A stretch of 40,608 nt of DNA, from NCBI GenBank assembly GCA_947455025.1, contig CANGLU010000019.1, positions 1 through 40,608 on the forward strand. Direction: 5' to 3'. Below are positions 24,700 to 25,777 of the stretch, piece after piece. Below the pieces are notes generated by a model. That model had not been told where the DNA came from. It saw only the letters and a program-made list of their open reading frames with translations, and did no database searches. A program made the translations under genes and the position numbers. Source of the DNA: Hyphomicrobiales bacterium. Its GTDB lineage: Bacteria; Pseudomonadota; Alphaproteobacteria; Rhizobiales; Beijerinckiaceae. Each line of letters starts with the position of its first letter. Positions within the stretch are counted from its first letter, which is position 1.

Positions 24700-24784
24700 T
24701 TGAGGTGAATAGCGGCAGGGGTTGAGGTAATGGCCGCGGTGTTTGAGGTAGTGGTGGGGCGGGTTGAGGTTATTGGAAGTGTGC
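24700..24784 (+). repeat. Short imperfect tandem repeat, ~21 bp x 4
   Basis: TTGAGGT recurs at 24700, 24722, 24743 and 24764, each followed by a GT-rich spacer, giving a period of 21-22 bp. From 24709 one plus-strand frame is open through the last three units and into the decayed small-gene remnant. The repeat could therefore be an expanded part of a former coding sequence. Confidence 0.6.
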
Positions 24785-24866
24785 GGGCTGCGGAGGTGCA
24801 GTCACCCGTGCCTGAGCATGCCATGTGGAAACAGAGCAGTTGATCGGGAAGATCGAAAAGTTTGAA
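24780..24866 (+). pseudogene. Decayed duplicate of the 3' end of the small gene at 25392
   Basis: This stretch aligns base for base, with substitutions and small indels, to the last ~80 bp of the small gene (25522-25604): GTGCGGGCTGCGGAGGTG here against GTGCGTGCTGCGGAGGTG there, then CAGTTGATCGGGAAG against CAGTTGATTGGGAAG. The similarity continues past the stop into the palindromic repeat downstream of each. The reading frame here gives VRAAEV, then diverges and hits TGA at about 24841. No start or leader is retained, so it is a fragment left by duplication. Confidence 0.7.
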
Positions 24867-24875
24867 TAATTCTTA

Positions 24876-25040
24876 CCGTCATTGCGAGCGAAGGCGAAGC
24901 AACCCAGCTAAGAGAAAACCATAAGAGCGCGACATCACCTTTGCACTTACAAAACAACCATCAACTGGGTTGCTTCGCGTTCGCTCGCAATGACGGCTGA
25001 GGTTTGCGTCGCGAACTGTTCCTCACTTCGCAATGACGGG
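24876..25040. repeat. Palindromic repeat, family 2 copy 1
   Basis: The left arm begins CCGTCATTGCGAGCG at 24876 and continues GAAGCAACCCAG. The right arm, ending CGCAATGACGG at 24996, is its inverted complement (CTGGGTTGCTTCGCG). A further CGCAATGACGG end occurs at 25029-25039 after a short GCGAACTGTTCCTCA spacer. The same layout, including the extra end, is seen in copy 2. Confidence 0.85.
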
Positions 25041-25137
25041 TGATGTGTGAACCTTTTACTAAAATCCAACTATACACCTTAAGGTTGCATAACGCTTTTC
25101 CATGCTACCGCTGTCCTTCGCGTTGATCGCGCGGGGT

Positions 25138-25165
25138 TTGTGTTTGGTGGGTGGGGTGGTATAGT
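25138..25165 (+). promoter_or_regulatory. Candidate sigma-70 promoter of the leader RNA and small gene
   Basis: TTGTGT (25138-25143) and TATAGT (25160-25165) are separated by 16 bp, a good match to a housekeeping promoter. Transcription would begin at about 25172, a few bases before the first hairpin of the structured leader. Confidence 0.5.
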
Positions 25166-25171
25166 TGCCGT

Positions 25172-25391
25172 TAGGTCATGCGTCCGCATGGCTTGGGGAA
25201 CTAGAAAGCCTCATCCAAGATCGGCAGTGCATCTGCCGTTACCAAACTGCCCTGACGCTTCACGTCGGGGTGGCGGCGTTATGTCCAGGCTGCAAGGCTA
25301 AAAGCGCTGCGGCCATATCTTGGTGGCTTTTCTAGCACCCCGGCACCAGCGCGCTTTTGCGCTGGCGCCGTTCTCTCATTTGGAGGGTGCG
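25172..25391 (+). ncRNA. Candidate structured leader RNA (four-way junction) upstream of a small gene
   Basis: By hand folding: a long closing stem P1 is formed by 25201-25210 with 25325-25335 (10 pairs, one bulge), extended by CCAAGAT (25215-25221) with ATCTTGG (25317-25323). Inside are three hairpins: P2 CGGCAG/CTGCCG (25222-25238), P3 CCCTGACG/CGTCGGGG (25250-25270) and P4 GGCTGC/GCGGCC with inner pairs (25288-25314). A fifth hairpin (25342-25369, 10 pairs and one mismatch) stands just before the ribosome-binding site at 25382. GGCTT at 25190-25194 can instead pair with AAGCC at 25206-25210, breaking P1. I do not recognise a known riboswitch, tmRNA, 6S, SRP or RNase P signature. Confidence 0.6.
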
Positions 25392-25604
25392 ATGCCATTG
25401 ATTGATTATTCAAAGCCCGTGAATTTTTTTGATAGTGCTGAGGGCGTGAGTGTTGTGCTGCAACACGCGCTTGTTCAATTGCGTGATTGTGTGGCGTTTC
25501 AGGAAGAGAAGGATCGTGCCGTGGTGCGTGCTGCGGAGGTGCTGTCCGCCGTGCTTGAGGATGCGCATGCGGAAATTGAGCAGTTGATTGGGAAGCTCGA
25601 ATAA
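25392..25604 (+). CDS. Small hypothetical protein, 70 residues
   Basis: I do not recognise this protein. It is 70 residues long, acidic and apparently mostly helical, with no signal peptide or membrane segment. After MPLIDYSKPVNFFD comes a heptad-like run of Val, Leu and Ala (VSVVLQHALVQL; VVRAAEVLSAVLEDA) ending EQLIGKLE. The start ATG 25392 follows GGAGGG (25382-25387); the reading frame is open 24 codons further up but runs through the leader hairpin. It sits behind the structured leader and a plausible promoter. Its last 80 bp are duplicated in decayed form 740 bp upstream, and a palindromic repeat follows its stop by 6 bp. Confidence 0.6.
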   Translation: MPLIDYSKPVNFFDSAEGVSVVLQHALVQLRDCVAFQEEKDRAVVRAAEVLSAVLEDAHAEIEQLIGKLE

Positions 25605-25610
25605 TTTTTA

Positions 25611-25777
25611 CCGTCATTGCGAGCGATGAGCGAAGCAACCCAGTTGGAGATTCAGAAAAGAGCGCAATCAATCCGTTGCACTTAAAAAAATATAGATTAG
25701 CTGGTTTGCTTCGCGTTCGCTCGCAATGACGGCTGAGGGGGGTGCTTCGCGAACCGTTCCTCACCCCGTAATGACGG
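25611..25777. repeat. Palindromic repeat, family 2 copy 2
   Basis: CCGTCATTGCGAGCG at 25611 with the complementary end CGCAATGACGG at 25732, plus an extra ATGACGG end at 25777 after GCGAACCGTTCCTCA. The inner part (AAGAGCGCAATCAA, TTGCACTTA) matches copy 1, so both repeats belong to one duplicated ~255-bp segment that includes the small gene's end. It lies between that gene and the convergent nadC and may terminate both. Confidence 0.85.

Follow-up and report, generated by a model that had tools for sequence, protein, structure and literature searches.

A proposed C4-like antisense leader RNA, related to sRNA-Xcc1, upstream of a small helical protein gene in a Beijerinckiaceae genus

Contig 19 of a 2.5-Mb genome from a Hyphomicrobiales bacterium (family Beijerinckiaceae) supplied the stretch of 40,608 nucleotides (nt) analyzed here (the window), in which a structured RNA element is followed closely by a 70-codon open reading frame (ORF). 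On balance, we favor the interpretation that this RNA is a processed antisense leader that works much like the C4 RNA of phages P1 and P7 and controls its own gene, the product of which is a 70-amino-acid (70-aa) protein predicted to form a helical hairpin. Comparison of related sequences shows the structure itself, a hypervariable, compensated stem, and a match between that stem and the gene's own Shine-Dalgarno (SD) site in relatives of the phage, plasmid, Escherichia coli and Magnetococcales types. It also shows a weaker match, within the window's own genus, between the leader and one segment of the RNA, called b'.

The proposed mechanism can be outlined as follows, with coordinates in Table 1. 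The RNA would be made as the 5' leader of the small-gene transcript. In the full-length transcript an antisense strand, consisting of the segments a' and b', would be held by a decoy, namely the 5' strand of the closing stem P1. Removal or rearrangement of the 5' part at about 25264 would let the 3' half refold by means of an alternative 9-bp helix, which leaves a' exposed in a loop and b' unpaired. Acting in cis or in trans, these segments would then pair with the SD and start region (25385-25397) and block translation. The stem, by changing rapidly, would keep each copy matched to itself, and the window copy would be one of the active ones.

Fold and covariation

The predicted fold of 25172-25391 has a minimum free energy (MFE) of -113.5 kcal/mol (z -6.9), and none of 200 dinucleotide shuffles folded as well. 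At its center is a closing stem of 17 pairs around three hairpins, which the preliminary description had drawn by hand and which the prediction reproduces in place, in runs of 7, 3 and 7 pairs (25201-25207/25329-25335, 25211-25213/25324-25326 and 25215-25221/25317-25323). The fifth hairpin (25342-25369), the ribosome-binding site and the 70-codon ORF described there are all present as well.

Comparison of 24 copies from the genus, from which a covariance model (R1) was built, argues that this fold is maintained. Paired cells make up 94.3% of the total versus 85.3 in shuffles (0/500), and changes on both sides of a pair occur in 105 cells versus 30.6 in shuffles (0/500). Coarser measures of covariation are weaker (14 pairs changed on both sides versus 11.6, 16/500; further pair types, 36/500). 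The closing stem is strongly divergent among these copies with its pairing kept, and its inner helix shows covariation at all 7 pairs. The closest copy within the same genome is 94% identical, yet its inner closing helix is almost wholly different, again with pairing kept. A further alignment (A5) of 91 distinct sequences from outside the genus has 87.3% of its cells paired, 44 of 46 pairs covarying and 981 cells with changes on both sides versus 317.5 in shuffles, although this alignment was fitted to the model and is hence biased towards it. A scan-based test of hairpin P3 was uninformative, with strands from other copies fitting nearly as well, and the support for P3 therefore comes from the covariation analyses.

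A different switch had been envisaged earlier, in which GGCTT ahead of the closing stem competes for AAGCC within it. The two words are indeed complementary in the window, but this switch was rejected as unconserved because by eye the window alone, among the 24 copies, has both words at those places (both occur anywhere in the first 65 nt in 4 of the 24). Better supported is a switch in which the 3' strand of P1 has two alternative partners, its own 5' strand and the downstream SD and start region.

Relation to sRNA-Xcc1

The preliminary description could assign the RNA to no known class. This stands insofar as an Rfam scan of the window gives no family at its cut-off, but the 3' half turns out to be a sub-threshold relative of sRNA-Xcc1 (RF02221), the sole Rfam match at E<=5 in 25050-25650 (25264-25352, 35.4 bits). 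Because the cut-off lies at 53 bits, the window copy is not filed under RF02221 as that family is drawn. A search of the whole genome with RF02221 at E<=10, in which 150 of 176 first-look candidates were scored, returned exactly the nine copies of the element found there, each over model positions 1-87 and all below the cut-off (28.4-35.4 bits); at the same loose limit 2 of 14 control genomes also match, none above the cut-off. One relative (L075) reaches 56.2 bits and so passes the cut-off. At the scale of the phylum, 58 of 398 genomes match RF02221 at E<=0.001, 39 of them above the cut-off, against none of 14 control genomes.

The known family appears to be the 3' half of a longer element. 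When 30 RF02221 loci were fetched, 14 were also matched at E<=1 by R2, a full-length model rebuilt with distant copies, and it is because these matches extend 73-114 nt further upstream that RF02221 can be identified with the 3' half; the other 16 loci gave no R2 match. The window's 3' half shares with sRNA-Xcc1 the 9-bp closing helix with its hairpins, and both occur in multiple copies, sRNA-Xcc1 in other bacteria. The Rfam model covers only 87 nt, whereas the element described here is a leader of roughly 150-200 nt whose 5' strand pairs with the 3' half.

sRNA-Xcc1 is mapped as a stable 88-nt transcript in Xanthomonas campestris pv. campestris (Xcc) (PMC2996969), and a homolog appears in a table for E. 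coli O157:H7 EDL933 with the figure 40,293, presumably reads (PMC5331693). A 2025 Xanthomonas study (PMC12444791) notes that sRNA-Xcc1 precedes symE in integron cassettes, and proposes that the regulatory mechanism is a divergent one. A search of the open-access literature nowhere found sRNA-Xcc1 and antirepressor together in one paper, and where that literature names sRNA-Xcc1 and C4 antisense together, the passages covered treat them as separate small RNAs (sRNAs).

Pairing with the gene's own Shine-Dalgarno site

The evidence for an antisense function comes mainly from relatives of the window RNA. Inspection of RF02221 loci by eye shows that in many of them the variable stem's 5' strand recurs at the downstream SD site, which makes the 3' strand antisense to its own gene. 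This was evaluated by comparing the pairing energy of the 3' strand and its own leader with the energies obtained when leaders were permuted within a group. None of 5000 permutations was as good among 25 of the 30 RF02221 loci (z -8.0), among 20 copies of the Magnetococcales type (z -7.9; a group assembled by the analyst that includes a Bilophila record and a viral contig) or among 80 other, mainly alphaproteobacterial copies (z -6.9). Twenty control tests with ORF-internal windows gave z values from -2.0 (three tests) to 1.8; relatedness and base composition may contribute to the signal. A word of at least 6 nt is common to the 5' region and the own leader in 20 of 20 Magnetococcales-type copies (5.6 expected) and in 14 of 25 RF02221 loci (8.4 expected), not always within the stem. 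Inspection by eye finds the repeat at the SD in all five phage and plasmid loci, and in one E. coli phage and four E. coli chromosomes the stem and leader co-vary (e.g. TCGAAA versus TCAGAA).

A masked antisense strand with a built-in decoy is the logic of the phage P1 C4 RNA (RF01695), which has its a1/b1 decoy arrangement and lies upstream of ant. Relatives of the window RNA likewise lie upstream of ant, AntA, BRO, KilA-N and Rha genes. In sequence and fold, however, the two differ, and the window RNA and its relatives reach far beyond phages and are also found at non-phage genes. No match to RF01695 was found at E<=5 in 25050-25650, nor in the other searches, which included the phage and plasmid RNAs, and the element is therefore C4-like rather than C4, with C4 its closest parallel in working. 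The characteristic pairing of C4, between antisense segments and the leader with the ribosome-binding site, is clear in the phage, E. coli and Magnetococcales-type relatives, and is weaker and confined to b' in the window's genus. A second parallel is SymE/SymR, a type I toxin-antitoxin system of E. coli in which an antisense RNA acts on symE; at SymE-type RF02221 loci the stem strand, or a near copy of it, recurs at the SD (by eye). Whereas SymR is transcribed from the opposite strand, the window-type RNA lies upstream on the same strand, and the window's gene is not symE. SymR itself is described as a cis-encoded small RNA (PMC12444791).

Within the window's genus, a scan of 25 RNA segments against the own leader left only alignment columns 184-204 clear, i.e. 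the 3' strand of P1b and P0 that we call b' (z -4.3, next best -2.7), and none of 100000 permutations was as good (n=33). The signal holds for the leader window from -15 to +22 (z -4.2), with four ORF-internal windows flat (z -0.9 to 0.5). The window's own b' could form pairs between GCACCC (25335-25340) and GGGTGC at the SD (25385-25390), and between TGGC (25324-25327) and GCCA (25394-25397), just past the start. The third copy of the P1 5' strand that relatives have at the SD is not found in the window.

The alternative helix and processing

The alternative helix and P3/P0 are mutually exclusive, and the helix begins where the RF02221 match begins. All 9 of its pairs are available in 34 of 40 genus rows (a set that includes L035+, the reverse-strand shadow of another copy), in 76 of 102 others, in 20/24 and 6/22 of two further groups and in 30/30 RF02221 loci, these counts being the best of a scan. 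Permuted strands give 9/9 in 30.5, 18.7, 11.5 and 3.5 rows of the groups of 40, 102, 24 and 22, respectively, and 15, 0, 0 and 7 of 5000 permutations reach the group's own mean; the excess in the genus is small because the strands vary little there. When 25264-25350 is folded alone, the alternative helix forms and ATCTTG becomes a hairpin loop. RF02221 has a 9-bp closing helix and two hairpins, of which the closing helix and the a' hairpin are present here, and the other hairpin is unlike P4. Since the RF02221 match begins at the first base of the helix and sRNA-Xcc1 was mapped at 88 nt, the analogy suggests a processed 3' half. C4 is cut by RNase P (PMC5320573), which would be a candidate for the processing here, and no more than a candidate because a CCA follows the helix in the genus (37/40 rows; 46/102 others) but in none of two other groups (0/24 and 0/22).

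Several results weigh against this interpretation. No sigma-70-type promoter was found ahead of the RNA by a crude scan blind to other promoter types, so that the plausible promoter earlier placed just 5' of the first hairpin did not materialize. The 3' half, folded alone, is only moderately stable (z -1.9, with 9 of 200 shuffles as good), another hairpin replaces P4 in its MFE structure, and the CCA is not universal. Within the genus, the SD carries no third copy of the hypervariable a' (4 of 32 copies share at least 6 nt, 3.6 expected), and tests with the whole strand against the own leader are weak (128/5000 and 173/5000). If the leader is made to end at the start codon, the signal of b' falls to z -2.1 (39/2000) or -1.9 (123/5000), hardly beyond the strongest of the 20 controls, and part of the signal must therefore reside in the first codons. 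In pairing with its strand, the leader of the window copy comes only 12th among the 33. Among relatives, the shared-word test of the group of 80 was not significant (16/80 versus 10.3 expected), and 22 copies from G387, a 1.6-Mb genome of the same class, gave no own-leader signal. The idea of a third copy of the hypervariable 7-mer somewhere near its own gene was also rejected: exact arms were sought from -250 nt to +600 nt of each copy, and beyond the two arms only two stray 7-mers far downstream (L033, L038) came to light. Taken together, support for the antisense mechanism is good in several groups of the family and, by sequence comparison, moderate for the window copy. As a separate observation, the stems at the G387 loci (L123-L142, L159-L162) are without a match to their own leaders, and the device may therefore work differently there.

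Downstream genes and alternative explanations

The ORF downstream of the RNA belongs to a family under coding selection, with 213/160/381 substitutions by codon position in 12 pairwise comparisons, one of which (L046-L058) is poor at 19% identity. AlphaFold2 run on eight members predicts a two-helix hairpin (helices 12-35 and 42-69; mean predicted local distance difference test, pLDDT, 87). The 70-aa protein matches no Pfam family at E<=5 and no family confidently; the weak matches are PHROGs phrog_3876 (E 0.14), NCBIfam FliX (E 0.022; 14.9 bits against a cut-off of 175) and three PDB sequences (E 0.49-0.91). Fourteen family members likewise gave only weak, single-member matches (DUF3077, E 0.054; FliG_M, E 0.069). 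The earlier suggestion of a cis-regulatory RNA is borne out in that the element is cis-linked to a real downstream gene, has compensated stems and homologs elsewhere, and is probably regulatory.

A census of downstream genes was made with 188 distinct RNA copies. An ORF of at least 35 codons with an SD-like triplet starts within 135 nt in 154 of them, compared to 44-46 in three shuffles of the downstream sequence. These data bear on the view that the element is a trans-acting sRNA, as proposed for sRNA-Xcc1, with the copy-specific loop a' directed at other mRNAs and the small gene a mere neighbor. The title of Chen et al. 2011 terms sRNA-Xcc1 trans-acting, and the absence of an own-leader match for a' in the window's genus fits this view. 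It nevertheless seems unlikely to us: the chosen start codon lies 40-75 nt downstream in 131/188 copies (18-27 in the three shuffles), and b' in the genus fits its own leader better than others once the start region is included.

The RNA had also been suggested to be the active part, with the small protein as its partner. That protein's family does occur within 600 nt downstream in 29 of the 40 genus rows, but the wider family of RNAs has no constant partner, and unrelated proteins follow the same RNA elsewhere, which makes an RNA that acts by binding the small helical protein very improbable. Outside the genus, Pfam scans (30 + 104 proteins) find Bro-N, pRha, P22_AR_N, KilA-N, AntA, SymE and helix-turn-helix (HTH) domains, and further sigma-70 regions, DUF4268, outer-membrane barrels and a KhpA-type KH domain; nucleases also appear in the census. 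SymE_toxin accounts for 2 of 30 RF02221 cargo proteins (L291 by match, L311 by eye). In annotated records, about 30-40 nt separate the RNA from the gene downstream of it, which is ant in Haemophilus phage Aaphi23 and Escherichia phage Rac-SA53, a KilA-N gene in Acinetobacter phage 4316 and, on plasmids of Pseudomonas aeruginosa and Providencia, a BRO and a Rha gene, respectively; these five RNAs score 73-86 bits with RF02221.

This range of genes argues against a ligand-sensing cis element, in which an orphan riboswitch-like core of P2, P3, P4 and their joining segments would bind a small molecule or protein and switch a terminator or the ribosome-binding site. The core segments and loops are strongly conserved, as such an element would have them, and in many genus copies the hairpin before the gene is terminator-like with a T-rich tail (in the window the T-tract is weak, and a scan for terminators was negative at 25342-25369). 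Many distant members (L059-L077) also have, by eye, a possible pseudoknot between the P2 loop and the P2/P3 joining segment, with words such as GCAUC/GAUGC, GGCACC/GGUGCC and GACAC/GUGUC, which the commoner type in the window's genus seems to be without. The functional coherence of downstream genes that marks riboswitches is absent from the census, however, with no common pathway among antirepressors, HTH regulators, SymE, nucleases, outer-membrane proteins and sigma factors. The stem, moreover, is the fastest-changing part, and in several groups of relatives its changes follow those of the own SD site. We regard a ligand-sensing element as quite unlikely.

Other genes were noted after the RNA. 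A second small protein family (~72 aa, 'EFPNEFSL...') follows it in the genus at L031, L046, L052, L058 and L149, and the locus shared by L035, L036, L053 and L054 has a different downstream gene in one species. In a Granulicella metagenome-assembled genome (L190) the RNA precedes, by eye, a KhpA-type KH-domain gene, and the Pfam census contains one KH_KhpA-B match. At L115 a type III methyltransferase-like gene follows the RNA (by eye).

Copies and distribution

A blastn search of the window's own genome returned 10 places, nine of them RNA copies and the tenth a decayed gene end (24781-24857). R1 finds 40 copies in 11 of 12 genomes of the genus, with 9 in the window genome and 14 in another. 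A mobile cassette was considered and rejected: when flanks were compared among up to 40 genus loci, several had flanks common between species (e.g. L035, L036, L053 and L054, where the stems differ and L036 has a different gene), and copies at such loci therefore appear to have been inherited in place. Among the genus loci compared, none matched the window copy in its flanks. The decayed gene end precedes the window RNA, and similarly a partial antirepressor-type gene (AntA or ORF6N) stands before the RNA, and a further one after it, at three E. coli loci (L326-L328). In Xylella Temecula1, five sRNA-Xcc1 copies are spaced ~380 nt apart (PMC12189769). The partial genes and the spaced Xylella copies raise the idea that tandem RNA-gene units may recombine at the RNA.

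Beyond the genus, R1 matches 22 of 385 genomes of the class and R2 matches 35 of 398 genomes of the phylum, the window genome being included in both counts. G387 contains 29 copies, many of them before short HTH proteins. A degenerate pattern scan of named genomes gave at least 115 stretches, of which 80 listed ones were checked with R2; full-length matches at E<=1e-4 are present in 63 of these 80 and in 11 of 13 viral contigs. Among the matches listed are Micavibrio, Magnetococcales, Hyphomicrobium, Sneathiella, Rhodopseudomonas, Magnetospirillum and Rickettsiales, and also Granulicella, another Acidobacteria record and Bilophila. Judged by these model matches, full-length relatives are present across Pseudomonadota, in Acidobacteriota and Bilophila records and in viral contigs. 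A blastn search of plasmids and phages with L075 gave no match; other queries found 6 plasmid and 4 phage records.

Layout of the locus

Dispersed inverted-repeat-like sequences (ACCGTCATTGCGAGCG...CGCTCGCAATGACGG) lie on either side of the element, at 24880-25000 and 25605-25735, and similar sequences occur beside copies L002, L003 and L013.

Table 1. Positions of the features of the RNA element and its gene in the window
Feature	Position	Strand	Basis
Decayed copy of the small gene's end, 5' of the RNA	24781-24857	+	85% identity to end of the 25138-25604 query (blastn)
5' hairpin GGTCATGC/GCATGGCT, ahead of the core	25173-25194	+	Fold; found in most genus copies
P0 5' strand GGGG, partner 25338-25341	25195-25198	+	Fold, covariation
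P1 5' strand, proposed decoy: b1 25201-25207, a1 25215-25221, 25211-25213 between	25201-25221	+	Covariation
P2 hairpin CGGCAG-TGCAT-CTGCCG	25222-25238	+	Fold, covariation
P3 hairpin (precursor fold), 25247-25257 with 25263-25273	25247-25273	+	Fold; covariation also in wider set
Alternative acceptor-like 9-bp helix, GTCGGGGTG 25264-25272 with CACCCCGGC 25336-25344	25264-25344	+	Strand pairing, fold of 3' half
P4 hairpin, conserved loop TAAAAGC	25288-25314	+	Conservation, covariation
a', hypervariable P1a 3' strand ATCTTGG	25317-25323	+	Covariation; ATCTTG apical loop when 3' half folded alone
b', P1b/P0 3' strand	25324-25341	+	Own-leader pairing scan
GC-rich hairpin between RNA and gene	25342-25369	+	Fold
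ACCA immediately 3' of the alternative helix; tRNA-like end, candidate RNase P signal	25345-25348	+	Sequence
Shine-Dalgarno region GGAGGGTGC	25382-25390	+	Sequence
70-codon gene	25392-25604	+	Coding test, structure prediction

Conclusions

The chances seem to us about evenly divided that a single large class of self-decoyed antisense leader RNAs, so far unrecognised and parallel to C4, includes both sRNA-Xcc1 and the window RNA. Such a class would control phage antirepressors and SymE in phages and Gammaproteobacteria, would have been recruited many times to chromosomal genes of alphaproteobacteria, and in this Beijerinckiaceae genus would have become multi-copy, each RNA being private to its own small helical protein. 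The proposal would supply a concrete and testable mechanism for sRNA-Xcc1, which is known from Xanthomonas, Xylella vesicles and E. coli O157:H7 and for which the literature passages covered give no mechanism at the level of the neighboring gene. It would also link the sRNA-Xcc1 family to the control of phage antirepressors, and would mean that the 87-nt model misses the 5' half of the element with its decoy strand. Finally, a stem that is almost wholly changed between near-identical copies, and that in several groups is nonetheless matched to a third site, would make these RNAs a natural set of orthogonal RNA regulators.
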